Source of the DNA: Prorocentrum cordatum
Lineage: Eukaryota; Sar; Dinophyceae; Prorocentrales; Prorocentraceae
Assembly (NCBI GenBank): GCA_963575745.1
Contig: CAUYUJ010014627.1
Coordinates: 410,001-474,000 of the forward strand
DNA length: 64,000 nucleotides
Reading direction: 5' to 3'
Shown: one piece after another, positions 12,655 through 48,867 of the stretch
How positions within the stretch are numbered: the stretch's first letter is position 1
Layout of the letters: each line of letters starts with the position of its first letter
Translations under genes and position numbers: made by a program
The notes under the pieces: generated by a model
The model's database searches: none
Seen by the model: the letters and a program-made list of their open reading frames with translations, nothing else
What the model was told of the DNA's origin: nothing

Positions 12655-12690
12655 CCCCCTTCCTCCTCCTCCTGCACCTCCTCCTCCTCG

Positions 12691-12741
<51 letters not shown>
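12655..12741. repeat. (CTC)n then (CAT)n microsatellite at 5' border of element 1
   Basis: A pyrimidine-rich CTC tract (about 12655-12690) passes into pure CAT triplets up to 12741, directly abutting the spliced leader. A pyrimidine tract followed by the AG at the end of the leader could serve as a trans-splice acceptor for new transcripts; that is inference. Confidence 0.9.
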
Positions 12742-12744
<3 letters not shown>

Positions 12745-12763
12745 GTAGCCATTTTGGCTCAAG
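12742..12763 (+). other. Complete dinoflagellate spliced leader (22 nt)
   Basis: All 22 nt match the established DinoSL consensus (first base T, then core CCGTAGCCATTTTGGCTCAAG less the final base shown at 12763). The base after the terminal AAG is G followed by GCCAAATGG, not the GT donor of an SL RNA gene. This is therefore a leader already spliced to its acceptor exon and copied into DNA, not an SL RNA gene. Confidence 0.95.
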
Positions 12764-12769
12764 GGCCAA

Positions 12770-15700
12770 ATGGCGTTCATTCCACTGCCTCAGCGGGGTA
12801 GGCTCCCATCAGATCAACCAGTTGATTTGCCGCCACAACCAGGGGCTAGCGGCCGCCCAAGCTTTCTCGCCATAGTACTTGCTGCTGTGTGCGCCTCCAT
12901 ATTCCACCCGTCGGTCGAGTTCCTCCTGACGAAGAGCCTTCACAGCATCAGCTGGGACGGCTTCCATATCGCGCCCCAGGTCGCTGGCGAGAAGCGACCC
13001 ACAACCGACAACGACTTCTACGACAACGCGCTGCAGAGCGACTCGCTCTACCTCCCACAACGGCAGAGTATTTCACAATGGCATCCAGTGAAAGTAGCGG
13101 CAGCAGTTCTTCTTCAGCCACCAAAGATCGACGTCGACGGCCACGCAAAGAACGGGAACGAGACCGCAGAGACAAAGGCAGAGGAGACGGCAGCCACTCC
13201 CGCAGTGATAGAGGTCAACGAAGTGATAAGCATAGATCCGAACGCCCTCCTTCTCAAGATCGGGACAGACGACGTGATGAACGTGAAGCCCCCCGTGAAC
13301 ATGAGAGTGGGGCTGCACAGCGAGCTCATCCCCCACGTGCGGGCCGAGCAGGCACAGCCACAGCTACCACCCCCACCCGCAGGGCAGCGCGCAGTGGAGG
13401 ACCTTCGGCCGCGTCAGCATCCATGGCAACCAGCTCCAGAGCCGACCCCAGAGGCGAAGATGCACTTCAGCGAGAGGACCCGTGGACAGGGTCTCAGTTA
13501 CCTCCTGGACCAGCTCAAAGGGCTTCCCTCATACGTGCTGCAGAAGAGGCGGCTACAATACCCGGCACGCCTGGCGGAACAGCAGCAGGAGTGGCACCAG
13601 CGACTCCAGTCGCGGGCGAAGCTCTCGGTAGCATGCCTACCCCAGTCGGAGGTGGATTCATGCACGACGACAACTCGCTGGAGCAGCGCCTCAGCCAGCT
13701 CTTCACATCCCAGATCGAGTCGGCCACCGCCAGGCTCCAGAACGAGTCCGAGGCCATCATTCGCAACGCTCAGCAAGCTCTTCAAGGCGAACTTCAGCTC
13801 GTTCTCGGACATGTGCGACAGCATGGAGGCAGGCTGGACGCCATGGACACCTCAGTCCGAGAGCTCAACCAGCGCACACATACAGTGGAGCAGGAACAGC
13901 AACAGATGCGGCAAGAAGTGGAACGGATTCAATCGCAATTGGCAATGGCAGAAGCTACTTTACCTACCTTCGACATGGCGGCTTTGGCAGTTTGGGATCG
14001 ACCACCAGACCCTCATCTCTACACAATTGGCGCACCATCGGCTATACAACCTGCAGAAGTCAAGCGCGCTCTTGAACCCTGGATCAATGCAGCAGGCGTC
14101 TCCACCAACGACGTGGAGCTCATCGGCGACGTACCCGCACGGCGTTTCTTCCTCAGAGTCCTTGGTGGACCAGCAGCCACTTCACGCAGTCTTTCACTCG
14201 CACGGAATCTCAGAGCAGGAGGTCAGTGGCGTAACTTCTCGGCTCCAAACACTACTGGTGCGCTCACTCCCCTTTACATCAACGCGGACAAGTCTCCTAA
14301 AACCCTTCGGCGAGAACTACAAACAAAGCGATTGGTCAAGCTCCTGGCAGACAAGCACGGCAACCATCACTTCAGAAAGGTCGGAGACGAAGGCATCGTC
14401 TCTTGCAGCTCAATTCCCCTTGTGGTTCTCGAGGTTGGAGACAGCGCCAACGCCCCCACAAAGCTCAGGTGGAACATCGCAGTCGCCCACCAGATGGGTA
14501 TCGACAAGATCACAATCACAGATCAGTTTCAGCAGCTCTTCCTGGCCACAGATACGTCGCGGTGGTCTATTTAACACTCGCTGGAGCCCGTGGCTACAAC
14601 AAGCTAGAGACAGTGGTGGCCAGGTAGTATCGTGGAATGCTCGTGGCCTGTGCTGCTACAAGAAGCGGCGCCGCAAGAACAAGCTGCGCAAGCTGGAGCG
14701 GTTCATGAAGGCATCCGCTCTCATCATGATCCAGGAGACGCATGGTGTTCGACAGCAGCTTGAAGTCATGGTCGCCTCCTCCCCATACAAGTACAAGGTA
14801 TTCCATTCTCAGGCGGAAGAATCATCACAGAGTTCATCAGAATCACCCGATGCTGAACGCGCTGGCAATGCACGGCGCGGTGGAGTGGCATTCCTAGTGC
14901 CGTGGCCTGCTGGTGCTGCAGATACCAGACCGTCTCTCGAATTTCATGTGCTAGTCCCGGGCAGGGTCGCGCAGCTGTCTATCAAGCACCACGAGCTACG
15001 CTGCCATATGCGCGTCATGAATGTTCACAACTACAACATTTCCCCGAACGACAAGACTGTTATCAATAGCAGATGGATGGAAAATATTCAATGGGCAAGC
15101 AGCAATCACCTTGAGCGCACGTTCATCGCGATAGGTGACTTCAACATCCGTGAGGGCGTCCCTTTGTCATATGATCACCCTCTACCTGATCAGGCCCAGC
15201 TACGGACGCTTCGTACATACCAACCCGCAGAAGCTTTCTGGCGTACCCTCTTTGACACTATGCAGGAGATCCGCTCGGAGGTGCCAACGTATTTCAGCAG
15301 GCAGCACTACGCCGCATCGGCCATCGATAGACTTTTTGTCAGTACACCAGAGCACCACCTGATCGCCACGGACATCCATCTCTCTGTTGCCATGGACCCA
15401 GTGGAGATGGCCCAGTCGCGCTTGAGCGACCACTCCATCATCCACGCCACCTTCAGAGCCAAGCAGAACATTCCAGAGGAGGCGCAGCGCATCCCAGATG
15501 TGGTCTTCACGGACGAGCGATACAAGATCATACTCGACAGCCTCATCAACGCGAGTAGCCTGGAAAGGTTCTCGCCTGTGCTGAAATGGACGCACATGAA
15601 ACAGCTCATGCTTGAGGCCGCTCGTCAAACCCGAGGTGAGCTCCAGCGGCTACCATATCGACCTGGCGACAAACGTGCACGAGGTGGCCGCAACATTACT

Positions 15701-18331
15701 CTCCGCAGTATTTCTAGAGCCGTGTGGAAGCAGGACCTACGGCAAGCAGCCCTTCTGGTATCAACCACCGAGGATGGCAAGCGCTTTCTTCACATCGATG
15801 AGGATGGGGTCAGGCTCCAGAACGCGGACACCTTTCGCATCCTCTTCCGCTCACTGCACGATGCGGAGCTAGAGGCCATGCAGATACGTGCTGCCCGAGC
15901 CGCACAAGCTGCGCAGCGAGCTGGAGACCAACCTGCAGCTGAACCGCATTTTCGCCAAGTTCGTGCTGGTCGCCGTAGGGCCTTCCTCTGGAAGCCGAAG
16001 GGCCGCAGGATGGTGCTGGCAGGTATCCGTCCTGAACACTCTCTAGAGAATCCCGAGGCCCCAGTCGTTCGAGGCCCCACAGAAGTTCATGAAGCTCTTG
16101 CCGCCTACTGGGGGAAGGTTTTCCGCTACAAATCGGCCGACAAAAACAAAATCGAGGCTCGCCTGGACAGAGTCTACCCGACGGTCCCCGAGGCCCCGAT
16201 CCCGATCCCGAGTGTTGATGACCTCCGGGCTACCCTCAAACGTGTTCGTCACTCTTCGTCAGGTCCCGATAGGTTACCATATCGTGCGTGGATGGTAGCC
16301 GAAGAACAACTGTACACCCTCCACGGCCTGATGCTGCACCTCTTCGCAGGTGACTACGTCCCCGAGGATCTGAACGATTCCCTGTTCGCTTTCCTTCCCA
16401 AAGGTTCTGAGCCCCTAGATGCTTATGAGTGTATCAGAAAGCCCTCTCAAATTAGACCGCTGTCGCTACGTAATTCGGACTCCAAGATGTTGGCCTCAGC
16501 GGCCAACCATAGAATCAAGGCCCTGGTCCAATCTCGGACCCATGTCGTCCAGCAAGGTTTTGTTCCTGGCCGCAATTTTGTCGGGAATATCATTCGTTTA
16601 GATAGCGCAGCGCGTAGAATGAGTGTACAGCCGAATGCGGACGCACACGCCCCAGTGTTTGTCGCATTCGACATAGCTGCAGCCTTCCCAAGTCTCGGAC
16701 ACGATTGGCTCTGGGCGGTTTTAGCTCGGTCAGGCCTTCCGCAAGGCTACCAGAAATTCATCGGCTCCCTGTATTTCGGGCCCCGCGGATTAACCTCTGT
16801 CCAGGGATCCAAACAGTTTCTCTTTTACCTGCAGTCTGGAGTCATGCAAGGGTGCCCCCTTTCAGGCTCGGTCTGGGCACTAGCAATGGACCCCATCCTG
16901 AGATGTCTGGTTGAGCAAGCCGCTGATCCTTCTCTTGGGGACTGGCGCGGGGAGGTGGGTGGGTGTGCGGACGACACAGGCCTTGCTCAACCCAGACTCC
17001 AGGACCTATGCCGCGTCGCTCCAGTCTTTCAGGATGCAGAAGAGCTTGCTAAGCTCCGCCTCCAGACCTCCAAAACTGTCATCGCCCCTCTTTGGACAGA
17101 GCTCTCAGATGCAGTTGTAGCACGAATTCGGGGATTCCTGCGCGAGCATATTCCCCAGTGGGCCAGCATGAAGATCGCTTCCTACACCAAATACTTGGGG
17201 GCCCAGTTTGGGCCTGGGGCGTCGGAGGCGCTTGTCTGGAAGGAAGCGGTCGCCAAGTGGTGGTCTCGTTCGTTTGACATTCCCAAATCCGAGGGCCCCA
17301 CCAGCGTCAGTCTGCTGCTATACAACAGTACAGCGCTATCTACTTTAAGCTACCTTGCCCAGCTTTTCCCGATGGATCGCGAAGCCCTCCTGAAGGAAAA
17401 ATTTGCCATCCACAAAATCCTTCGGCTTCCGCCCAGCACGTTTCGCAAAGCTGATGTTTTCTCTTTCACGGGACACGGTTTAGTGGCCCCGCAGTCCGCC
17501 CTGATCCTAGGTGCGGCTAGTATGTGGCGCTGCTCCACTCTCGCGATTGTCGGTTGGGCAGCAGAGCTCGACAGGTGGCGCGAAACGGCTGCATTGACCT
17601 GCTCCGTCGTCGACTGGATCAAAGGAGAGTGGAGCGCCCCCTGCTGGATCCAAAAGCAGGGGATCGCCCAACGTTTTGCAGATTTAGTGAATCGCCCACC
17701 ACGCCGAGGCATCCCAATTGTCCAGTGGAGAGCCTCGCATGCGGCAGGCCGCATGGAAACTCGCGCGGCGCAAGCGGTGGGCAAGAAGCCCAAGCTCCAG
17801 CGTACGGTCTCCTCCTTCCTCCGCCTCAATCTCTACCCCAACAAATTCGAAGTGACGATCTCCGAGCGCCTGAGCGCTTGGGGTCTTGCTGGTAACATCG
17901 TGGGCGGGGTGGCGGAGCGGTGGGGGGATTGTCTTGCAACGATTAAGAAGTTTAAACCTGCATGGCAGTGGTCGATCCTTAAGACCCTCGCAGGCGGCTG
18001 GACAACCAGCCATCGAATCCACGTGCGTGGGATCGTTAATTGCCTTTTTGGGGGCGCCCAGACTGACTCCATTGCTCATTGCGTTTCTTGCCCCGTCCTC
18101 CGTTCCCTCGTTGGCCTCCCCCCCAACCCACTGACTTTCCTCGGCCTAGCGGCTGATAGCGAATACAACTGTGAGAGCTGCACGTTCTCGCGCGCTGATG
18201 CGCTGCGCCTGGCCGTGTTGGCATTCCATACATACCACAAGGCGAAAGCTGCGGTGACCCATGGGGACCAGCTCACGCCAAGCCAACAGCGAGCCGCTGT
18301 CGCAGCAGCACAGCACGCCACTGACATCTAA
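12770..18331 (+). CDS. ORF2: AP-endonuclease-like plus reverse transcriptase of element 1
   Basis: The frame is open for 1853 codons from ATG 12770 to TAA at 18331. Only ~620-1853 show conserved function, so the working protein probably begins near 14.6 kb; no in-frame ATG lies between the ORF1 stop and the endonuclease start. Endonuclease (EEP fold) motifs: SWNARGL at 621, QETHG near 660, GDFN at 789-792, SAIDRLFV near 845, SDH at 886-888. Reverse transcriptase: FLPKGS, QGFVPGR, FDIAAAF with Asp 1301, QGCPLSG, and CADD with Asp 1401-1402. Near the C terminus a CLFGG...D...HCVSC Cys/His motif resembles the zinc knuckle of other non-LTR ORF2 proteins. The enzyme would nick target DNA and prime reverse transcription there. 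Residues 1-600 overlap ORF1 in another frame and have no recognisable domain. Confidence 0.92.
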   Translation: MAFIPLPQRGRLPSDQPVDLPPQPGASGRPSFLAIVLAAVCASIFHPSVEFLLTKSLHSISWDGFHIAPQVAGEKRPTTDNDFYDNALQSDSLYLPQRQSISQWHPVKVAAAVLLQPPKIDVDGHAKNGNETAETKAEETAATPAVIEVNEVISIDPNALLLKIGTDDVMNVKPPVNMRVGLHSELIPHVRAEQAQPQLPPPPAGQRAVEDLRPRQHPWQPAPEPTPEAKMHFSERTRGQGLSYLLDQLKGLPSYVLQKRRLQYPARLAEQQQEWHQRLQSRAKLSVACLPQSEVDSCTTTTRWSSASASSSHPRSSRPPPGSRTSPRPSFATLSKLFKANFSSFSDMCDSMEAGWTPWTPQSESSTSAHIQWSRNSNRCGKKWNGFNRNWQWQKLLYLPSTWRLWQFGIDHQTLISTQLAHHRLYNLQKSSALLNPGSMQQASPPTTWSSSATYPHGVSSSESLVDQQPLHAVFHSHGISEQEVSGVTSRLQTLLVRSLPFTSTRTSLLKPFGENYKQSDWSSSWQTSTATITSERSETKASSLAAQFPLWFSRLETAPTPPQSSGGTSQSPTRWVSTRSQSQISFSSSSWPQIRRGGLFNTRWSPWLQQARDSGGQVVSWNARGLCCYKKRRRKNKLRKLERFMKASALIMIQETHGVRQQLEVMVASSPYKYKVFHSQAEESSQSSSESPDAERAGNARRGGVAFLVPWPAGAADTRPSLEFHVLVPGRVAQLSIKHHELRCHMRVMNVHNYNISPNDKTVINSRWMENIQWASSNHLERTFIAIGDFNIREGVPLSYDHPLPDQAQLRTLRTYQPAEAFWRTLFDTMQEIRSEVPTYFSRQHYAASAIDRLFVSTPEHHLIATDIHLSVAMDPVEMAQSRLSDHSIIHATFRAKQNIPEEAQRIPDVVFTDERYKIILDSLINASSLERFSPVLKWTHMKQLMLEAARQTRGELQRLPYRPGDKRARGGRNITLRSISRAVWKQDLRQAALLVSTTEDGKRFLHIDEDGVRLQNADTFRILFRSLHDAELEAMQIRAARAAQAAQRAGDQPAAEPHFRQVRAGRRRAFLWKPKGRRMVLAGIRPEHSLENPEAPVVRGPTEVHEALAAYWGKVFRYKSADKNKIEARLDRVYPTVPEAPIPIPSVDDLRATLKRVRHSSSGPDRLPYRAWMVAEEQLYTLHGLMLHLFAGDYVPEDLNDSLFAFLPKGSEPLDAYECIRKPSQIRPLSLRNSDSKMLASAANHRIKALVQSRTHVVQQGFVPGRNFVGNIIRLDSAARRMSVQPNADAHAPVFVAFDIAAAFPSLGHDWLWAVLARSGLPQGYQKFIGSLYFGPRGLTSVQGSKQFLFYLQSGVMQGCPLSGSVWALAMDPILRCLVEQAADPSLGDWRGEVGGCADDTGLAQPRLQDLCRVAPVFQDAEELAKLRLQTSKTVIAPLWTELSDAVVARIRGFLREHIPQWASMKIASYTKYLGAQFGPGASEALVWKEAVAKWWSRSFDIPKSEGPTSVSLLLYNSTALSTLSYLAQLFPMDREALLKEKFAIHKILRLPPSTFRKADVFSFTGHGLVAPQSALILGAASMWRCSTLAIVGWAAELDRWRETAALTCSVVDWIKGEWSAPCWIQKQGIAQRFADLVNRPPRRGIPIVQWRASHAAGRMETRAAQAVGKKPKLQRTVSSFLRLNLYPNKFEVTISERLSAWGLAGNIVGGVAERWGDCLATIKKFKPAWQWSILKTLAGGWTTSHRIHVRGIVNCLFGGAQTDSIAHCVSCPVLRSLVGLPPNPLTFLGLAADSEYNCESCTFSRADALRLAVLAFHTYHKAKAAVTHGDQLTPSQQRAAVAAAQHATDI
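13078..14574 (+). CDS. ORF1p-like RNA-binding protein of retrotransposon element 1
   Basis: The 498-residue frame begins at ATG 13078 (MASSESSG). An upstream in-frame extension starts only at a GTG, so this ATG is preferred. Residues ~5-110 are a Ser/Arg/Asp-rich basic region (SATKDRRRRPRKERERDRR), and ~110-200 are Ala/Pro/Thr-rich. A coiled coil follows at ~210-300 (LEQRLSQLFTSQIESATARL; VEQEQQQMRQEVERIQSQLA). Next comes an RRM-like segment around residues 345-400 (RRFFLRVLGG ... PLYINADK) and a C-terminal domain (LVKLLADKHGNHHFRKVGD). Coiled coil, RRM and C-terminal domain in this order match L1-type ORF1 proteins, which trimerise, bind element RNA and act as nucleic-acid chaperones. The whole ORF1 overlaps an open ORF2-frame extension. 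Similarity is by architecture and not database-tested. Confidence 0.8.
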   Translation: MASSESSGSSSSSATKDRRRRPRKERERDRRDKGRGDGSHSRSDRGQRSDKHRSERPPSQDRDRRRDEREAPREHESGAAQRAHPPRAGRAGTATATTPTRRAARSGGPSAASASMATSSRADPRGEDALQREDPWTGSQLPPGPAQRASLIRAAEEAATIPGTPGGTAAGVAPATPVAGEALGSMPTPVGGGFMHDDNSLEQRLSQLFTSQIESATARLQNESEAIIRNAQQALQGELQLVLGHVRQHGGRLDAMDTSVRELNQRTHTVEQEQQQMRQEVERIQSQLAMAEATLPTFDMAALAVWDRPPDPHLYTIGAPSAIQPAEVKRALEPWINAAGVSTNDVELIGDVPARRFFLRVLGGPAATSRSLSLARNLRAGGQWRNFSAPNTTGALTPLYINADKSPKTLRRELQTKRLVKLLADKHGNHHFRKVGDEGIVSCSSIPLVVLEVGDSANAPTKLRWNIAVAHQMGIDKITITDQFQQLFLATDTSRWSI

Positions 18332-18365
18332 TGCGGCTGACGATGCGTGCGAACTGGCTCGCCTC

Positions 18366-18376
18366 AGGTACGGTCG

Positions 18377-18407
<31 letters not shown>

Positions 18408-18413
18408 CCATAA
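18366..18413. repeat. (CAT)n at junction of elements 1 and 2
   Basis: About eleven CAT/ATC triplets ending ACCATAA abut the next spliced leader. The tract is at once the 3' tail of element 1 and the 5' border of element 2. Confidence 0.95.
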
Positions 18414-18435
18414 TCCGTAGCCATTTTGGCTCAAG
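18414..18435 (+). other. Complete dinoflagellate spliced leader (22 nt), second copy
   Basis: All 22 nt match DinoSL and are identical to 12742-12763. The following bases are ACTCCGG, so there is no GT donor and this is again a processed leader. Confidence 0.95.
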
Positions 18436-18556
18436 ACTCCGGCTTCTTGGGCGCAGCGCCCCATTCTCACACGCGATCCCTGTCGGAGACCAGCCCTGGT
18501 CGCGGCAGGCCCTTTGTCTTATAGCTCGACAGTTGCTCTGTCCTTCTCCTGCTGCG

Positions 18557-19616
18557 ATGCCTGTCTCTCTGGAGAATATCGAGGCCCTTCTGAAAGAATA
18601 GGGGACAGCAGCTCGGCAGCAGGCCACGGAGACCAAGGAGACGTTCGACAAGCTGACGACTGCCGTCGCGGAGGCCCAGACCTCCACGAACCAGCTCGCA
18701 ATGCGCATGTCCGCGGCGCAGGCCGAGACCGACGAGAGATTCGCGAAGCTGGAGGAGGAGATCCGCGTGCTTCAGGACTCGCGTGACTTTCAGGACTGCG
18801 AGGGCGAACCGCACGGCGACGATCCGATGGCCGTGGTGGGCCCTCGGCCCCCGCGGTGTGTGTCACTCAAGATCGACGCCATCGAGAAGAAGCTTGCTGA
18901 GCTGGCAGCAGCTCAGTTGGCTGCCGCCTCTGTTGCTGCGTCTACGGCAGCTTCGGCGCGGCCCTTCGGCAGCACTCCGGACTGCAAGCGCGCTCGCATG
19001 CTCGGAGGCAATGTGATCAACCTCGTTGATGAAGGGGAAGCTCCAGACCGTACAAAGATCTGGGTTCGAGGTTTCCCACGGAAGCTCCTGAAGACCAAGC
19101 TGGACGAGCAGTTCTTAACGATGAATAGTTCCTCTTCCTGCCGCTTATCGTGAGCGGTGCCAGGCGTGGACTCGTAACATTCAGACGGCCTGTGTGGTGA
19201 AGTTCGAGTCGGAGCAGGACGCGAACAGCTTCTACGACCAGTTTCGCGCGTCGCCCCCCACGTGGCGTGACGCGAAGTCTGGCACCACACATCAGATCCG
19301 TGTGGGTCGTGATCTACCGATTGAGGTGAGGAAGAGGAGCCTTGCGATGAGCAAGTGCTGGACCATCTGTAAGGACATGCTGCAAAGACAGAACCTGTGG
19401 AAACCAGAGATGAAGTTGGGCTGCAACCCGTTCCAAGGCGTGTGCTACCTGATCTACCATAATGAACCTTACGAGTTGGTCAAGTGCGTCGACTCCTTGG
19501 ACGGCACGTTCACCTTCGAGCCGCAGTTCTCCACACTCCAGGAGATCGGGATCGCGAAGGAGATGGCCGAGGGCATTCCTGGGCTGGTTCAGGGTCTTCT
19601 CGGCCAGTCATCCTGA
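18557..19616 (+). pseudogene. Broken ORF1 of element 2
   Basis: ATG at 18557 opens MPVSLENIEALLKE, interrupted by an in-frame TAG at 18599. The same frame continues with a coiled coil (ETFDKLTTAVAEAQTSTNQL; DERFAKLEEEIRVL) and an RNA-binding start KIWVRGFPRKLL. A frameshift near 19115-19145 moves the rest to another frame, which ends at 19616 with VVKFESEQDANSFYDQFR (RNP-like), a basic segment (RDLPIEVRKRSLAMSKCW) and a C-terminal domain. Function as for element 1 ORF1; inactive here unless the TAG is read through and the frameshift corrected. Confidence 0.8.
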
Positions 19617-19869
19617 TGGTGTTCATGGCAGGACGGTTGCTCGATGGGGATGAACGCGAATGCACTCACTAGTTCGATCTGCCTACGCTTGACGGGTGAA
19701 GATAATCGTGGCCGTGTTTTTGATATTCCCGAGCTTGATCTGCTTCCACCTCTGAAGCGACGGCGGCTGCCTGGCAGCCGGAAGCGACGGAGTGCGCCCC
19801 CTTCCCCCTCATCTTCCTCCTCCTCCTCCTCCTCCCCCCCCTTTCCTGTGCGTTTCAGGTCAGAATGCC

Positions 19870-20560
19870 AGCGGCCCTTTTTTTCGCGAGCGTGTAATCT
19901 AGTTTCTTGGAATTCAGGTACCTCTTTTGGCGCAGCGTCTGGTTCCGAGCCTCGACAGAGACGTGCCCTGGGAAAGGCCCGTGGCTGCTCAGTTTGAAGG
20001 TGCTCCCCAGCCGCTCGTGATTGACCCAGGCCGGGTGCACTCGCTCACTTTTCACGGTCCAGCTGGCAGCCTGCAGATAATCAATGTCCACGTCGAGCCG
20101 CAGCGGAAACATAGTTTGAAGATGGAGCTTCTCCAGGCAATCCGTCGGCGCACCCTGGGGCTCACTTCGGCTTCGGTTTTCCTGGGCGGTGATTGGAACG
20201 TCCTGGAATATGGAGAACAGCGCTCTTCCACGGTTTCGGATGAAGCTCCAAGGATATATGCGGCGTCTAGGCTAGGCGACTAATTCGATCGGCTTTTTTC
20301 CCCAGTTTGCGGAAGTAGAGCAGGGTGATCCGACTCATAGGTACGTAGCCCACGAAGCTGTTGTTAGTGTTGGTCGTCTTGATTGGCCGTGCGTGACCTC
20401 CCCAGTCCGGTTTTTTTTTATCGGTCTTTCCCTTCGGAGCTTCGTGATTGGACAAGCCCACGATCGTCGTGGACCGTCTGGCCATGTCCGTGTCGCCCTT
20501 CAGCTCTCCCCTAACAAATCTAACATGCGTAAGTTGCCTAAGCGGGTCTCGCAGCACCTG
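19870..20560 (+). pseudogene. Broken endonuclease domain of element 2 ORF2
   Basis: The endonuclease start NLVSWNSG lies at 19896-19919. A frame change leads to LQIINVHVEP and the catalytic GGDWN (20185-20199). Another frame then carries FAEVEQGDPTH and a SGH where intact relatives have SDH, so the catalytic Asp is replaced. A stop at 20281 ends the middle frame. The upstream CTC-rich tract at 19805-19845 may be an insertion or linker. Order and motifs identify an EEP-type endonuclease, inactive in this copy. Confidence 0.75.
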
Positions 20561-21980
20561 GAATTCGAGGAGCTTTTGAAAGAGATTGCTTTGGAGGCCG
20601 GCCTTTCTGAGGACCCTCGAGAGCGCATCTTGGACATCAAGGATTGCATGTATGCGGTGAAAGATCGGTTTCTGAGAGGCTCTTCCGAAACGGCCCCGCC
20701 ACTGACAGGCAGAAGGTTGCCATTTGTTTGAAGTTTACGCGGGCCAGTCAGAACAACAATCGTGCTTTAGTCAGGAGGTGTCTTCAGTCTCTGCCAGCGC
20801 TGGCGCAGCACTGCGATGCCGAGGGCGCGTGCTGCTCGGATTCTGCGGCGTTTCACAAGTATCAGCAGGGCGTGTGCAGTGACATTTTGCACGCTGAGAT
20901 CAGCGACTTCTTTGCCGAGAACCGCAGCGCCTCCCATTCTGATCTTCGTCCCTCTCAGCTTCGTGAGCTGCTCAGGCTATGGTCGCCTAAACATCGTCGT
21001 CTCGCCCTGTGTCGTGTGTCTGATCGTGGGGGTGGAGATTCTGGGCCCCTGTCTAATAGCGTCCGCAACCTGGCCAACCACTGGGGGGAGGTCCACGCCA
21101 AGCGGGCTTGCGGGCCCAAGTGCGATGAGGTTAAGCATTGGCTGTTCCAGGAAGTTCAGCAGGTCTCGCCTGGCATCCAGTGGAGACTGATGTATCACGA
21201 GTTTGTATGTGTCCTTGCTGCCAAGCAGGAATCCACCCCGGGCCCCGACGGCATTGGATATGCTGCGTGGAAGGCGGGCGGCGAGTTGCGTCGCGAGCGC
21301 CTGTTGTCCCTCTACCCGTACTTACTGGGCTGTAAAGAGATGATGGATGGTTTTAACAACACGTACACTGTTTTCATTCCCAAAGCAGACGGAGTCGGTG
21401 GGGGCGGGAGGGCTTCTCTGGAAATGTCTCGTGCTGCCGATGCCACTCGCCCTATTTCCTATTCCAATTGTGACCGCGAGCTGCTCGCTGCTGCCCTCGC
21501 TGACCCGCTCGCCGCGCAAGCGCAATATCCGGTCTCTGCTGCTCAGGAAGGGTCTGCCAAAAAACGCAATATGCCCGGCCACGTTCTCGAGATGAAGTCA
21601 CAGTTGATATATTCCTTCTCCTTCCAAGATTGCCTGCGATTGCTGCTGCGTTTCCCTCGCTCGATCACGACTGGATCTTCGACTGCCTTGTCAGAGCTAG
21701 GCGTGCCGAGGTACTTCTTGCTTGCCATCAGCGAATCGCATAAGAGTGTGGTCACAGAGGTCTTTCTCCGCGGGCCGGATTCTTGAAGGCTTCCGAACTC
21801 CCCGCCAGGGGAGACAAGGCTGTCCGCTGAGCGGGGCGATCTTCGCTTTATGTTTTGATCCTCTGGTCCGTCATCTGGAGAAGGCCCTGCGACCGCATCC
21901 AGGTAGGCCGTTCGTGTTCGCCGACGACATAGGCGTGCTCTCTCTAAGGACCTGCCGGTGCCAGTCCCGCTGGTAGTCCG
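20561..21980 (+). pseudogene. Broken reverse transcriptase domain of element 2
   Basis: Landmarks in order are STPGPDGIGYAAW (about 21232), TYTVFIPKADG (about 21363), AIAAAFPSLDHDWIF (about 21640-21685, frame differing from the longest frame), QGCPLSGAIFALCFDPL (about 21817-21870) and FADDIGVLS (about 21914-21942). The DD of the polymerase motif remains. Motif A lacks the expected FD before AAAF, and at least three frameshifts separate the parts. The domain copies element RNA to DNA in working relatives; this copy cannot make a continuous protein. Confidence 0.82.
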
Positions 21981-23214
21981 CCTCATGATGGAGGCGGCCT
22001 GGGCTAAAGGTCTTTTGATAAGCCCGAAGAAGTGCATCATCGTTCCCCTGCCGGCCTGAGCATGGCTGAGATCATCCACATGTTCCAGTGAGTCGGGCTG
22101 AACGTTTCGCTGTTCCAGGTGGGTTCCTCCGCCAGGTATTTGGGCATGTTTCTAGGGCCTGGTGGGCCCAGGCGTGGTTCAGCCTTGGGTCTTACTCAGA
22201 ATATTCGAGCCTGCAACACGTTTGGGTTTCCTCTGCTCAGCTTTCCCGCGCAGTTTCTCCCCGCGCCTGCTGCTGTTCTTCGTGCTGAGCGTGAGGCTCA
22301 TCAGTTTCTCACGGCAGGCCCGCGGCGGGCCGTGCCCGCGTTCGCGCTGGCGCACACCGGCGAGATCGGCTTGCCTGTCCAATTCCGCTCCGCCACCTTG
22401 GGAAATCAAGCAGCTATGTACCGGGTGCGTCTTCGGTCCGAGGCTTTCCCGCGAGTGCACGATCGCTGGCGCGAGCTCCGAGAAGTTGAAAAAAAACCGT
22501 CTTGCTGTGTCTCGAAGGGTTGATTGGGTTCAAGAGTCCATCACGGGGTCCCCGTGCACTTTGTTCGAACGCTCTCAGGCCATCCCTCAGATCCCTTCGG
22601 GCCCAGACATGACCCTTCGCCAGAAGCAGATCCACCTGATGATTAAGGTGCGAGACTCCCTGAGTAGGCCCCCAGTCTCAGTTGCTATTATCCCTAGGCT
22701 TAGGAAGTTTTGGGCCGACATACAGGTTTGGCATTCTGACCGAGTTCTTCATTGTTTAGAAACTGCTGGGAATGTTGCTCCTTTCGCTTGTTCCGCGCAT
22801 CTTAGATCTATCTGCAACGGGTGGTGCACTTCCGCCCGTTACAACCAAGGGTGCCAGGTGTGCCGATATGGATGCAAAGCGATGGGAGGCGATCGTGTTT
22901 TGCATTATCTATCGTGCCCGCTGCTGCTCGCTCAGCTGCCCCGTCTCCTTCCTGGTCTTCCCGAAGATTTTTGCGCGTGGTCACCCGAAGATAGGCTGCT
23001 GCTCTGCCTTCGGCCTTCCCTGGAGGGTGTCGGTCTCAGATATGCCTTGCTTGTGCATGACCTTGCAATTTCTGCGTTCCGTTTCCTACGAGCCCACAAG
23101 AGATGGGAACATGGCGCTCTCTCGACCCTTCTCGCTGCGAGGGCTCGCGCCATCGTGAACAAGAGCAGGGCGGTGCGTGCTCCTTTAAATCGACCAGACC
23201 ACTCAGCAACGAGT
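21981..23214 (+). pseudogene. C-terminal region of element 2 ORF2
   Basis: Frames at 22119-22523 and 22162-23214 together hold the post-polymerase region. The clearest landmark is CQVCRYGC followed by GGDRVLHYLSCPLL near 22852-22930. It parallels the C-x-GG...D...HCVSC motif of element 1 and is likely a zinc-binding knuckle. The last frame ends in translated CAT repeats, so the original stop is lost or lies in another frame. Confidence 0.7.
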
Positions 23215-23625
23215 GGGTCATCATCATCACCATCATCATCATGTTCATCATCATCAGCATCATCGTCAGCACCATCACAAGCCTCCTCTTCATCATCATA
23301 ATCGTCCTCGTCACCATCATCAGCATCAGCAACATCATCATCATCAACATCATCCTCATCATTATCGTATCCTTTTCCTCCTCGTCCTTTTCCTCATTTT
23401 CATGCTGTTCCTGTTCCTCCTTCTCCGCCTCCTTCTCCTCCTCATATTATTCCTCCTCCTTTTCATGATCCTCCTTCTCCTGCTCCTCCTCCTGGTCTTC
23501 CTCTTCCTCCTCCTCCTCCTGATCCTCCTCCTCCCCCTCCTCCTCCTCATCCTCCTCCTGATCCTCCTCCTCCTCCTCCTCCTCCTCCTCTTCCTCCCCT
23601 TTCTCGACGAGTCTGGGACGCACTG
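23215..23625. repeat. (CAT)n then (CTC)n microsatellite, 3' border of element 2
   Basis: CAT triplets (23215-23375) grade into CTC/CTT triplets ending near 23600. The order is the mirror of the CTC-then-CAT tract in front of element 1. Frames here are artefacts. Confidence 0.92.
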
Positions 23626-37840: not shown

Positions 37841-38579
37841 CGCCGCGCTGTTCCCCCCGCGCGTTTCAGGGAGTCCCCCAGTGTTCCCAGGAGGCCTCAA
37901 GGGTTTCCCAAGAATTCGTCGTCGTCGTCGCTGTCGCCCGCGACCAGGAGGCCGAAAAAAGCGAGAACAAAGTCACAAAACAAAAAAACGAAAAACAAAC
38001 AAATCGTTCCTCGAGCTTCGGACCTCGACCTTCGGAGGGGGGCGGAAGAACTCGCCCGCGTGGCAGAGACAACGTCGCCGCCGCCGCCGCCCCCCGATGG
38101 GGGGGGGGAGTCAGGAGGATGGGGGGCGGGAGGGGGAGGGGGATGGGGGGGCAGGACGGGGCGTTCTTGGGCGCATGTTGGCCCCGCGCGCACGCGGGGC
38201 GGTTCCACCGAGTTCCTTGGGCAGGCTTGGCGCAACCATCTTGGGCCCATTTGGGGGGGGGGCCAAATTGGCTTGAGTCAAATTGGCTACCGATCATGTC
38301 TCCTCTTCCTCGCTCGCCCCCCCTGTTCTTCTTGCTCGCGCTTCTGCTGCAACTCCTTCTTTTCCTCCTCAATTCCTTCTTCCTCCTCCGATGTCTCCCC
38401 CTTTTCCTTCTCTTCCTCTTCCCGAGGGCCCTGTCGCTCCAAACAGGCGCTGGGAAGCCGAAGCCCGCCGCGATGCGATCGCCCCCCCCCCCCCCGATCG
38501 CGCCCGCCATCGCGGATAATGCAAAAACGCGCTCCTGGCTGCTGCCGAGAAGCCGGGCTAGGGCATTGGCCAGGTAGAG
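37841..38579. other. Spacer inside DIRS-like element
   Basis: A GTC run (37916-37935), an A-rich stretch (37960-38010), G runs and a CTT/TTC-rich tract (38330-38420). No conserved protein segment is seen. It may be an insertion or diverged linker between gag-like and polymerase coding regions. Confidence 0.4.
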
Positions 38580-47171: not shown

Positions 47172-47193
47172 TACGTAGCCGTTTTGGCTCAGG
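47172..47193 (+). other. Spliced-leader relic upstream of nitroreductase gene
   Basis: 19 of 22 bases match DinoSL; differences are at leader positions 2 (C to A), 10 (A to G) and 21 (A to G). It lies 57 nt before the ATG, as expected for the 5' end of a trans-spliced mRNA copied into DNA. Confidence 0.82.
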
Positions 47194-47250
47194 AGGGTGC
47201 CGCCCATCAGCCGGCTGTCATTCCTTCGGTGGGGAATCTTCTCTTGCAGC

Positions 47251-48867
47251 ATGGGCACTGGGGCGTCCGCGGGACTGTCGGAGTGTTTGAACGCAGCCTC
47301 ACCGCAGGAACTTCGTGAGTGTGCGGAGGCGCTGCCAGAAGCCGAGCGGGCAAAGTTGTCCAGAGTGCTAGCGGGAGGTGCAGATGTCGGGAGGTTGCCC
47401 CTGGGTTTGCAGCATATGGCTTCGTGGCAGTGCACACGCAGCTTCGACCAAGCGAGGCCCGTGCCTAAAAAGATGGTTCTCGATATCCTCGAGTGTTCGC
47501 GCAGCCTTCCCACGTCGGCCAACACGCAGCCTTGGACAATCATCGTGGTCGAAGGTGACGCAAGGAACAAACTCAGCAAGAAGATGGCAGCGAAGTTCGA
47601 TGCTGGAGACGACGGCAAGTCGCAATATGTTGAGCGACCTTCGGACAGTCTTCCGCGCATGGACGAGGCAACGGCCGATTACGAGCGCCGGCTCTACGAG
47701 GATCATTTCAATCTTGCGCCAGACGACAAAGCCGGCCGGCGTGCGAAAGACCGGCAGAATTGTGAGTTCTGGGGTGCGCCAATACATTTGATTTTGTGCT
47801 CTCCTTACAAGCAGACTGTCGAGGATGGAGTCGATGGCATTCCCCTCGATATGGGCACATTGTTAACAGCTATCTTGTTTGCAGCACATTCTTACGGATT
47901 GGGAAGCATCCCGCAGTTTACCACAGCGAGATACCATGATTGTTGCCGCGAGGTCTTGGGAAATGACACATTGCCAGACGATCTCATGGTCACTTGTGGC
48001 CTCAGCATCGGGTGGCCAACGGGCGGTCGTGATCCGCGCGCGCACGCAGAGTTCGTGCCTAAGAAGTTGAGCGTCGCCGACGTAACCAACTGGTCTCAGT
48101 GCGATACAAGCTGGCTGACGGCCAACGCGGGAGCTGCTGGCGACGGCAAGGATCACACGCTTATCAAGCTCATCCAGGGCAGACACTGCTCGCACACCCT
48201 CGAGGCAGGGCGATCAGTCTCCAAAGATATCCTCCATGCAATCCTAGACGCAGCGTGCAATGCACATTCGATCGACAACTCGCAGCCATGGTCTGTCACA
48301 GTCGTCCAAGGTGCCAAGAGGGACGAGCTATCTAAGCGAATGCTTGAGCAGTTTGATGCTGGCTTCAACGGAGGGCAAACGTACAAGAAGTATGCGGCCG
48401 AAAACACACCGCAGATGCAGAAGGGCAAAGACACTTATGGGCAAGAGCTGTACGAGAAGAAGCACGGCCTGGCACGCGACGACGTGGACGGTCGGCGCCT
48501 AAAGTACAGGCCCAACTACGAGTTCTGGGGCGCCCCCCTAGTGTTGCTGCTGAAGTTGCCGAAGAAAGCGGTCTCGGGAACGTTCATCGACATCGGCTCG
48601 TTCATGTACAGCATCCTTCTCGCCATGCACGCCTACGGTCTCGGCGGCAAGCCTCTCGGCTCCACCGCCAAGTACACCGACATCTGCCGAGAGGTCCTCG
48701 GCATCGACGCCGTGCCAGAGCATGAGCACTTGATTTGCGGCCTCTGCATTGGCTGGCCCACCGATGGCCGCGACCCACGTGAGATGCCTGACTTCTTTCC
48801 GAGCCGCTTGACCCTGCAGGAAACTTGCCGTTGGGACGTGGACTCGTCTTGGTCGGCCCAGGCGTAG
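47251..48867 (+). CDS. Two-domain nitroreductase-family protein, single-exon retrogene
   Basis: ATG 47251 opens 538 residues without introns; an upstream in-frame start is only a GTG at 47197. Residues 2-6 GTGAS fit an N-myristoylation signal. Residues 18-45 are an amphipathic Glu/Ala-rich segment. Domain 1 (~60-280) has RSFDQARPV, LPTSANTQPW (86-95), EFWGAPIHLIL and DMGTLLTAILFAAHSYGLG (200-218). Domain 2 (~308-525) repeats these as RSVSKDILHAILDA, IDNSQPW (341-347), EFWGAPLVLLL and DIGSFMYSILLAMHAYGLG. S.N.QPW and the D.G...AA..YGLG helix are FMN-binding hallmarks of nitroreductases, usually homodimers of ~200-220-residue subunits. Two fused copies may form an internal dimer. They reduce nitro or quinone compounds with NAD(P)H; the substrate here is unknown. 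The spliced-leader relic upstream and intact frame suggest a functional retrogene. Confidence 0.9.
   Translation: MGTGASAGLSECLNAASPQELRECAEALPEAERAKLSRVLAGGADVGRLPLGLQHMASWQCTRSFDQARPVPKKMVLDILECSRSLPTSANTQPWTIIVVEGDARNKLSKKMAAKFDAGDDGKSQYVERPSDSLPRMDEATADYERRLYEDHFNLAPDDKAGRRAKDRQNCEFWGAPIHLILCSPYKQTVEDGVDGIPLDMGTLLTAILFAAHSYGLGSIPQFTTARYHDCCREVLGNDTLPDDLMVTCGLSIGWPTGGRDPRAHAEFVPKKLSVADVTNWSQCDTSWLTANAGAAGDGKDHTLIKLIQGRHCSHTLEAGRSVSKDILHAILDAACNAHSIDNSQPWSVTVVQGAKRDELSKRMLEQFDAGFNGGQTYKKYAAENTPQMQKGKDTYGQELYEKKHGLARDDVDGRRLKYRPNYEFWGAPLVLLLKLPKKAVSGTFIDIGSFMYSILLAMHAYGLGGKPLGSTAKYTDICREVLGIDAVPEHEHLICGLCIGWPTDGRDPREMPDFFPSRLTLQETCRWDVDSSWSAQA

Follow-up and report, generated by a model that had tools for sequence, protein, structure and literature searches.

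We analysed a 64,000-nt stretch of the Prorocentrum cordatum genome (hereafter the window; contig CAUYUJ010014627.1, positions 410,001 to 474,000; GC content, 60.5 %), in which two L1-like long interspersed nuclear elements (LINEs) lie head to tail, each opened by an exact dinoflagellate spliced leader (SL) and adjoined at each end by (CAT)n. The exact 21-nt SL core was found twice on the + strand, at 12743–12763 and 18415–18435, and was preceded in both cases by the T of SL position 1. When up to three mismatches were allowed, four SL matches were detected in the window, against a maximum of 0 in 100 shuffles. These exact SLs and CAT arrays confirm the preliminary description of this DNA, made from the sequence alone, as two head-to-tail elements that each begin with a complete SL and are separated by (CAT)n. 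The features of the locus are given below.

About 12659–12690 (+): (CTC)n tract, 5′ part of the apparent compound microsatellite target (sequence)
About 12691–12742 (+): pure (100 %) (TCA/CAT)n that flanks element 1 on its 5′ side; the T at 12742 is also SL position 1
12743–12763 (+): exact dinoflagellate SL, 5′ end of element 1 (SL search)
12743–18376 (+): element 1, L1-like non-long-terminal-repeat retrotransposon (homology; 3′ limit from 20/20 fetched copies)
12770–13570 (+): 5′ open frame, phase 2, beginning 6 nt past the SL (with homology to two gene models of P. cordatum)
13569–13651 (+): 83-nt GC–AG intron candidate or alternative frame-change site (two P. cordatum gene models skip here)
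13654–14574 (+): open reading frame 1 (ORF1), phase 1, frame open from 12889 (predicted coiled coil, RNA-recognition-motif (RRM)-like and C-terminal parts)
14570–18331 (+): ORF2 frame, phase 2, start provisional (endonuclease motifs at 14630–15439, reverse transcriptase at 16433–17086)
18332–18376 (+): short 3′ untranslated region with the end CTCAGGTACGGTCG, without poly(A) (sequence, family 3′ ends)
About 18377–18414 (+): (ATC/CAT)n between the elements, slightly decayed beside element 2 (repeat scan)
18415–18435 (+): exact dinoflagellate SL, 5′ end of element 2 (SL search)
18415–23217 (+): element 2, second L1-like family, decayed, from SL to CAT (homology)
20008–20259 (+): endonuclease remnant of element 2 (homology)
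20644–22487 (+): reverse transcriptase region of element 2, in several frames (homology)
23218–23366 (+): decayed (TCA/CAT)n on the 3′ side of element 2 (repeat scan)
23373–23597 (+): (TCC/CTC)-rich tract with (TCC)n at 23415–23597, 3′ part of the compound microsatellite (repeat scan)

Judged from their sequences, elements 1 and 2 are two families, each carrying its SL independently of the other. In a blastn comparison, the 21-nt SL was the sole DNA in common, so their common start is not the result of a duplication, and their proteins showed approximately 25 % identity across the longest aligned stretch. Element 2 is heavily decayed, with 30, 41 and 50 stops in the three frames from 18556 onwards and at least four shifts of frame in its homology. 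The AG-free tract before the SL of element 1 (108 nt) was considered as a special feature but rejected, as at least 25 same-strand runs reach 110 nt or more.

The coding signal of element 1 followed phase 2 from 12770 to approximately 13570, phase 1 up to 14574, and phase 2 again for ORF2. ORF2 is open, and contains all five apurinic-type endonuclease motifs (N, E, D/N, D and SDH), which were mostly kept in aligned relatives, together with motifs A, B and C of the reverse transcriptase. The best solved relative of an ORF2 profile, built from element 1 and 21 relatives, was human L1 ORF2p (E 7.3e-76), with a match spanning both the endonuclease and the reverse transcriptase; the top R2 match gave E 7.3e-41. 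On these motifs and this profile match, element 1 is classed as an L1-group LINE, a group in which ORF2 likewise encodes an apurinic-type endonuclease and a reverse transcriptase. For ORF1, the predicted structure (predicted local distance difference test score, pLDDT, 69) has a coiled coil of 100 residues, followed by parts that are RRM-like and C-terminal, and may thus be of the LINE-1 ORF1p kind. The fold match was weak: the top Foldseek match was the L1 ORF1p trimer 2yko (E 0.038, probability 0.54), and none was found at E ≤0.001. The prediction for the 5′ protein (pLDDT 34) was too low for use. The closest relatives found were P. cordatum gene models and proteins of short contigs.

Two P. 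cordatum gene models of the element 1 family jump from the 5′ frame to the ORF1 frame at the same place. A frame change near 13570–13654 seems to be common to these three copies, in the form of either an intron or a frameshift. Without splicing at 13569–13651, one frame would be open from 12770 to 18331 (1853 aa, ORF2 included), while splicing there would fuse the 5′ frame with ORF1, making this site a candidate switch between two products. The C-terminal zinc knuckle of element 1 is one Cys short, and up to 17 of the 18 relatives aligned at this place have the residue, at one of two adjacent columns. Because the 5′ coding region shifts frame and the knuckle Cys is missing, the intactness of element 1 is doubtful. 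An overlapping frame through ORF1 (0 stops against 4.4 expected, P 0.004) was rejected as selected coding, since the third frame through ORF1 was depleted as well (3 stops against 12.2 expected).

To characterize the element 1 family, we searched the 4.128-Gb assembly (21,875 contigs) with the first kilobase of element 1, including the SL, and with its last kilobase; 40 of 374 and 40 of 110 candidates were scored, respectively. The 5′ query gave 41 matches, 34 of which began no more than 5 nt into the SL. Thirty-nine other 5′ junctions were fetched, and 37 were readable after two with N upstream (L065 and L083) had been left out. A complete SL was present at 33 of the 37 ends, with 0–2 mismatches or, in one case, a 1-nt deletion (L058, scored as SL-bearing by a hand-set exception). 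The other four were L055, which lacked 91 nt at its 5′ end and had (CAT)n immediately upstream, L062 with a folded-back partial SL, as from snap-back cDNA, L081, which began just past the SL, and L082, a truncated copy without a complete SL. Upstream of the SL, 25 close copies of element 1 showed CAT (21 copies), CCT (3) or no motif (1), while eight relatives whose match was limited to the first 116–124 nt showed CCT (7) or none (1). The difference in CAT and CCT between close copies (21:3) and relatives (0:7) was significant (Fisher p 4.6e-5).

The 3′ query gave 41 matches in 40 copies, and 39 of the 41 ended within 3 nt of the query end. We fetched the 3′ junctions of the first 20 of the 39 other copies listed. 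All 20 carried CTCAGGTACGGTCG or a near variant at the same nucleotide and then passed into a repeat, indicating a fixed 3′ end in this family; poly(A) was detected at none of these 20 junctions. The commonest motif of the 3′ flank was CAT in 19 copies and CCT in one, and 18 of the 20 flanks passed the repeat test.

Two copies (C14277 and C14244) shared 98–99 % identity with element 1 over its first as well as its last kilobase and had different flanks, so the element 1 family is likely to have moved recently. In the preliminary description, element 1 had been said to look intact and to be possibly still mobile; recent activity is likely from these copies, while intactness was not borne out. 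Ten copies (C14041, C2131, C13205, C16140, C17540, C16556, C13466, C18388, C8209 and C7151) had both ends 3.9–4.3 kb apart on one contig and strand, eight of them at 3.98 kb, as compared with 5.6 kb for element 1, and each carried 0–2 SL relics. Judged from their ends, these copies probably form an approximately 3.98-kb subfamily with an apparent internal deletion, non-autonomous and mobilized in trans.

The element 2 family was searched with the first kilobase of element 2 without the SL. All 37 candidates were scored, giving 39 matches. Of the 21 other matches that began no more than 15 nt from the start of the query, 20 were fetched (the short C15278 match was omitted), with 8–33 nt visible upstream of the SL. 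An SL or an SL relic was found at 19 of the 20 ends, namely, 16 with an SL at 0–3 mismatches and three of relic form (CTCAAG or a variant, then CCATTTTGGCTCAAG or a variant); the remaining end had a decayed SL with six mismatches. CAT or a near form lay directly upstream of the SL in 13 of the 17 ends not of relic form, and the majority of the fetched copies had the junction SL–GCTCTAACC or one close to it. The preliminary description had named leaderless full-length copies and unrelated flanks as signs of an accidental arrangement. Instead, leaders or their relics were the rule in both families (33/37 and 19/20), and in the element 1 family (CAT)n preceded 21/25 close copies and a repeat followed 20/20 3′ ends.

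The 5′ ends also retained traces of earlier leaders. Among the 33 SL-bearing copies of the element 1 family, the SL was followed by one 15-nt relic in three copies and by two relics in four. The relic begins exactly past the GTAG of the old SL, as does the 15-nt relic in published transcripts (PMC12014239). The acceptor site was also switched: in L161 of the element 2 family, the junction with the SL lay 25 nt deeper in the element, at a place with an AG in 14 of 15 aligned copies, and in element 2 itself it lay 50 nt deeper than in most of the fetched family copies, at a place with AG/G in 14 of 17. These relic ladders and switched AG acceptors, which passive SL copying cannot give, indicate repeated trans-splicing; as read from the genomic copies, the SL was re-added over successive rounds. 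The proposal of the preliminary description that trans-splicing is part of the life cycle is thereby supported. Its further proposal, that the leader sets the 5′ end on every round, holds in that splicing remakes the end, although the nucleotide at which it does so can vary, and an exact SL swap in every round is ruled out by the relic ladders and the other acceptors.

We then examined SL sites throughout the genome, in which the exact SL was present in 14,218 copies, while a reversed-pattern control gave 0. Among the first 70 sites in listing order, a period-3 repeat was detected in the 45 nt upstream of the SL at 45 sites (background, 5.7 %; binomial p ~1e-38), and in the 45 nt downstream at 0 of 70. 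The upstream motif at these 45 sites was CCT in 30, AGG in 13, CAT in 1 and CGT in 1, with (CCT)n and (AGG)n being commoner than CAT. One relic followed the SL at 8 of the 70 listed sites. LINE coding homology was found within 1.46 kb downstream at 10 of the first 30 sites, and 20 sites followed over 8.9 kb included seven LINEs (tblastn). In six of these seven, the trinucleotide before the SL recurred past the 3′ end without change of orientation, CCT in five and AGG in one, and at one site (L039) the LINE was followed by a 3′ (CCT)n and then by a further SL insertion (L040), repeating the head-to-tail pattern of the window. Taken from these flanks, the target appears as short simple repeats such as CATCATCAT, with a motif and strand that vary by family, other families using (CCT)n or (AGG)n. 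T stood before CCGTAG at 64 of the 70 sites, including 11 of the 13 AGG-flanked sites, whose repeat holds no T. Since this T is present where the repeat has none, the cDNA extends to SL nucleotide 1. Separately, three SL sites on contig C39 (L118–L120) had near-identical surroundings at a spacing of 3–5 kb, representing a repeated SL insertion.

The SL was also found at sites outside these families. Within the window, an open frame with nitroreductase domains (47173–48867, +) has a decayed SL (three mismatches) upstream and flanks that are not CAT repeats, and is probably a host retrogene; an SL-like sequence with three mismatches lies at 38272–38292 (‒) and may be followed by a second relic. 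A scan of viral contigs for the SL yielded one contig, while searches of viral contigs with element 1 ORF2 or its relatives' alignment detected no LINE, and (CAT)5–SL was likewise not found. The contig hit (L001, 2700–2920), an AT-rich IMG/VR contig, carries two SLs, one preceding a GC-rich stretch, and is possibly dinoflagellate cDNA in a viral, perhaps giant virus, genome. A scan of genome contigs for the SL yielded two contigs. At the start of one, an ocean metagenome-assembled genome contig (L002, 1–60), (CAT)10 lies directly upstream of the SL, the junction of the window in a different sample; the contig is probably a mis-binned chimera and is given little weight here. The other (L003, 4334–4354), labelled Dehalococcoidia, has an SL followed by GTACGC beside apparent rDNA, and is apparently an SL RNA gene in a mis-binned contig. 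Its exon–intron border, CTCAAG/GTACG, is similar to a terminal motif near CTCAAGGTACG observed at the 3′ ends of element 1 (18363–18376), L039, L037 and L049.

We considered whether the SL might be encoded in the DNA as a promoter or start sequence and be copied along passively, without new trans-splicing in each round. For dinoflagellate retrogenes, the SL with its TTTG motif has been suggested to act as a promoter (PMC6050394), and the single SL without a relic in 26 of the 33 element 1 family copies would agree with it. However, splicing is needed for ladders in which the SL is followed by one or two 15-nt relics, each starting exactly past GTAG, and for SLs placed at different AGs so that 25 or 50 nt of leader are skipped, and we regard passive copying as very improbable. 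Known LINEs such as SLACS, CZAR and NeSL-1 insert into SL RNA genes, and the SL could in the same manner be a piece of the target. Spliced leader exons are listed among LINE targets (PMC4640811), and the exact SL exon at the 5′ ends is what such an insertion would give. Yet no GT follows the SL in either element, unlike in the apparent SL RNA gene L003, and the fetched 3′ ends lead into microsatellites rather than SL RNA sequence, with microsatellites as 5′ flanks as well. We give this explanation almost no credence.

The repeats call for a similar comparison. In I elements, a (TAA)n tail is made by the enzyme, and the repeat here might be only such a tail, combined with chance or later expansion of a repeat upstream. 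The repeat past the fixed 3′ end in 20/20 junctions, two of them decayed, fits this explanation, but the upstream side does not: the same motif precedes the SL in 21 of 25 close element 1 copies, and the truncated L055 still follows (CAT)n. In C17343, the odd compound repeat ATCCACTTCCTCCT is present at both ends (16/17 nt alike by eye), as expected of a target-site duplication, and the window locus and C2303 are both arranged as (CTC)(CAT)–element–(CAT)(CTC). A tail alone is very improbable on this evidence. Because the same motif stands on both sides and truncated L055 still adjoins (CAT)n, the repeat is, as far as these junctions indicate, the insertion target and not a tail alone. The preliminary description had left CAT as either target or 3′ tail; the shared motif of both flanks favours the target, with the corrections that the repeat is not merely a tail and that CAT is one motif among several. 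A further explanation is that LINE mRNA was retrocopied in trans, in the ordinary manner of host retrogenes, with SL addition and repeat targeting belonging to a general retroposition machinery rather than to the cycle of the elements themselves. Repeats also precede SL sites at which no LINE homology was detected, and the approximately 3.98-kb, probably non-autonomous subfamily has the same SL and CAT, in agreement with this possibility. Against it, the target motif varies between families, SL-bearing copies were copied anew, as seen from the relic ladders, and the common 3′ end without poly(A) is unlike that of a polyadenylated mRNA. We consider it unlikely, but worth keeping in mind.

Taken together, it is highly probable that the elements are LINEs of the L1 group that have trans-spliced RNA and insert into trinucleotide microsatellites as their target. 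Several observations weigh against this conclusion. Trans-splicing was read from genomic copies, and no relic was found in 26 of 33 element 1 family copies, for which reason an exact exchange at the terminal CAAG is only what we infer for such copies. The AGG flanks consist largely of purines and contain many AGs, which means that a role of the repeat as splice-acceptor tract is not possible in every case. Individual junctions also departed from the pattern: L081 begins just past the SL position without an SL, L069 has the SL but no repeat, and the 3′ flanks of L138 and L146 (2/20, decayed) fell under the repeat threshold. The 70 SL sites were the first in listing order rather than a random sample, and 25 of them had no period-3 repeat upstream in the test applied, although several of the 25 adjoin simple repeats of another kind, (AT)n or (CACAGA)n among them. 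Finally, 20 of the first 30 SL sites showed no LINE homology within 1.46 kb; these may be host retrogenes or unrecognized families.

For L1-group LINEs with trans-spliced RNA and microsatellite targets, we propose the following life cycle. A genomic copy would first be transcribed, perhaps by read-through, and the spliceosome would attach the 22-nt SL to an AG near the 5′ end of the element. Use of the GTAG within the old SL would leave a 15-nt relic, use of its terminal CAAG would leave none, and use of a downstream AG would trim the leader. The apurinic-type endonuclease of the element, presumably acting in cis and with its own nicking specificity, would then open a microsatellite of the motif and strand preferred by the family, (CAT)n in this case. 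Reverse transcription, which we infer to be primed by the repeat, would start from the fixed 3′ end beside the repeat, without poly(A), and extend up to SL nucleotide 1, so that the new copy has the order repeat–SL–element–repeat. The pair in the window would go back to two separate insertion events in a single (CTC)n(CAT)n(CTC)n array, element 2 probably being the older.

These elements differ from the LINE-1 group in the trans-spliced 5′ end, the lack of poly(A), and the microsatellite target with a fixed 3′ end. Families of the R1 clade use microsatellites. Defined repetitive targets are likewise described for some HERO families, for Togen in (TG)n, and for the Tx1 and R1 clades, of which the latter two have an apurinic-type endonuclease, as in the elements here (PMC4640811). 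HERO and Togen have a restriction-like endonuclease, whereas that of element 1 is of the apurinic type, no search having been aimed at a restriction-like domain. In the literature consulted on target-specific LINEs, no mention was found of an SL as an element's own 5′ end (PMC4640811). SLACS, CZAR and NeSL-1 likewise associate a LINE with the SL, but through SL RNA genes, while here only the spliced SL exon is involved. The trypanosomatid elements L1Tc and ingi are also LINEs whose hosts practise SL trans-splicing. L1Tc, however, is equipped with the Pr77 promoter, and no SL was present on the reporter mRNAs derived from Pr77 that were tested (PMC4748587). The SL and 15-nt relics at the 5′ end are shared with dinoflagellate SL retrogenes, as in the model of Slamovits and Keeling (PMC12014239, PMC7245778). 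Those retrogenes are host genes, whereas here the RNA carries ORF1 and ORF2 of a LINE and codes for an endonuclease and a reverse transcriptase, and a target repeat is identified. Each feature thus has a precedent, in SL retrogenes, microsatellite-targeting LINEs or L1-type enzymes, and their union in one life cycle was not found in print: our literature search, with most subscription journals outside its coverage, yielded no account of SL-headed LINE copies or of SL insertions in microsatellites.

LINEs must keep a working 5′ end in each copy, and most are thought to need an internal promoter. If the proposed cycle is correct, SL trans-splicing by the host would remake this end of the LINE, and the number of relics and the choice of acceptor would form a readable record of successive rounds. 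Two ordinary cell processes would then account for both ends of the element. More speculatively, and with doubts that we rate above our confidence, these LINEs may need no promoter of their own: read-through polycistronic transcription may supply the RNA, trans-splicing may excise and cap the copies, family-specific targeting may provide safe sites, pyrimidine-rich (CAT)n or (CCT)n may offer an acceptor context, and the same machinery may be the source of the majority of the 14,218 SL insertions, those of host retrogenes among them. In that case, SL trans-splicing would solve the 5′-end problem of LINEs. The type of mediator of SL-mRNA retroposition has been reviewed as unknown, with Ty1/copia favoured (PMC6050394). 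The LINEs described here offer a candidate answer to the questions of which enzymes retropose SL-tagged dinoflagellate mRNAs and where these land, and their microsatellite targeting may connect LINE activity with the abundance of repeats in these genomes.

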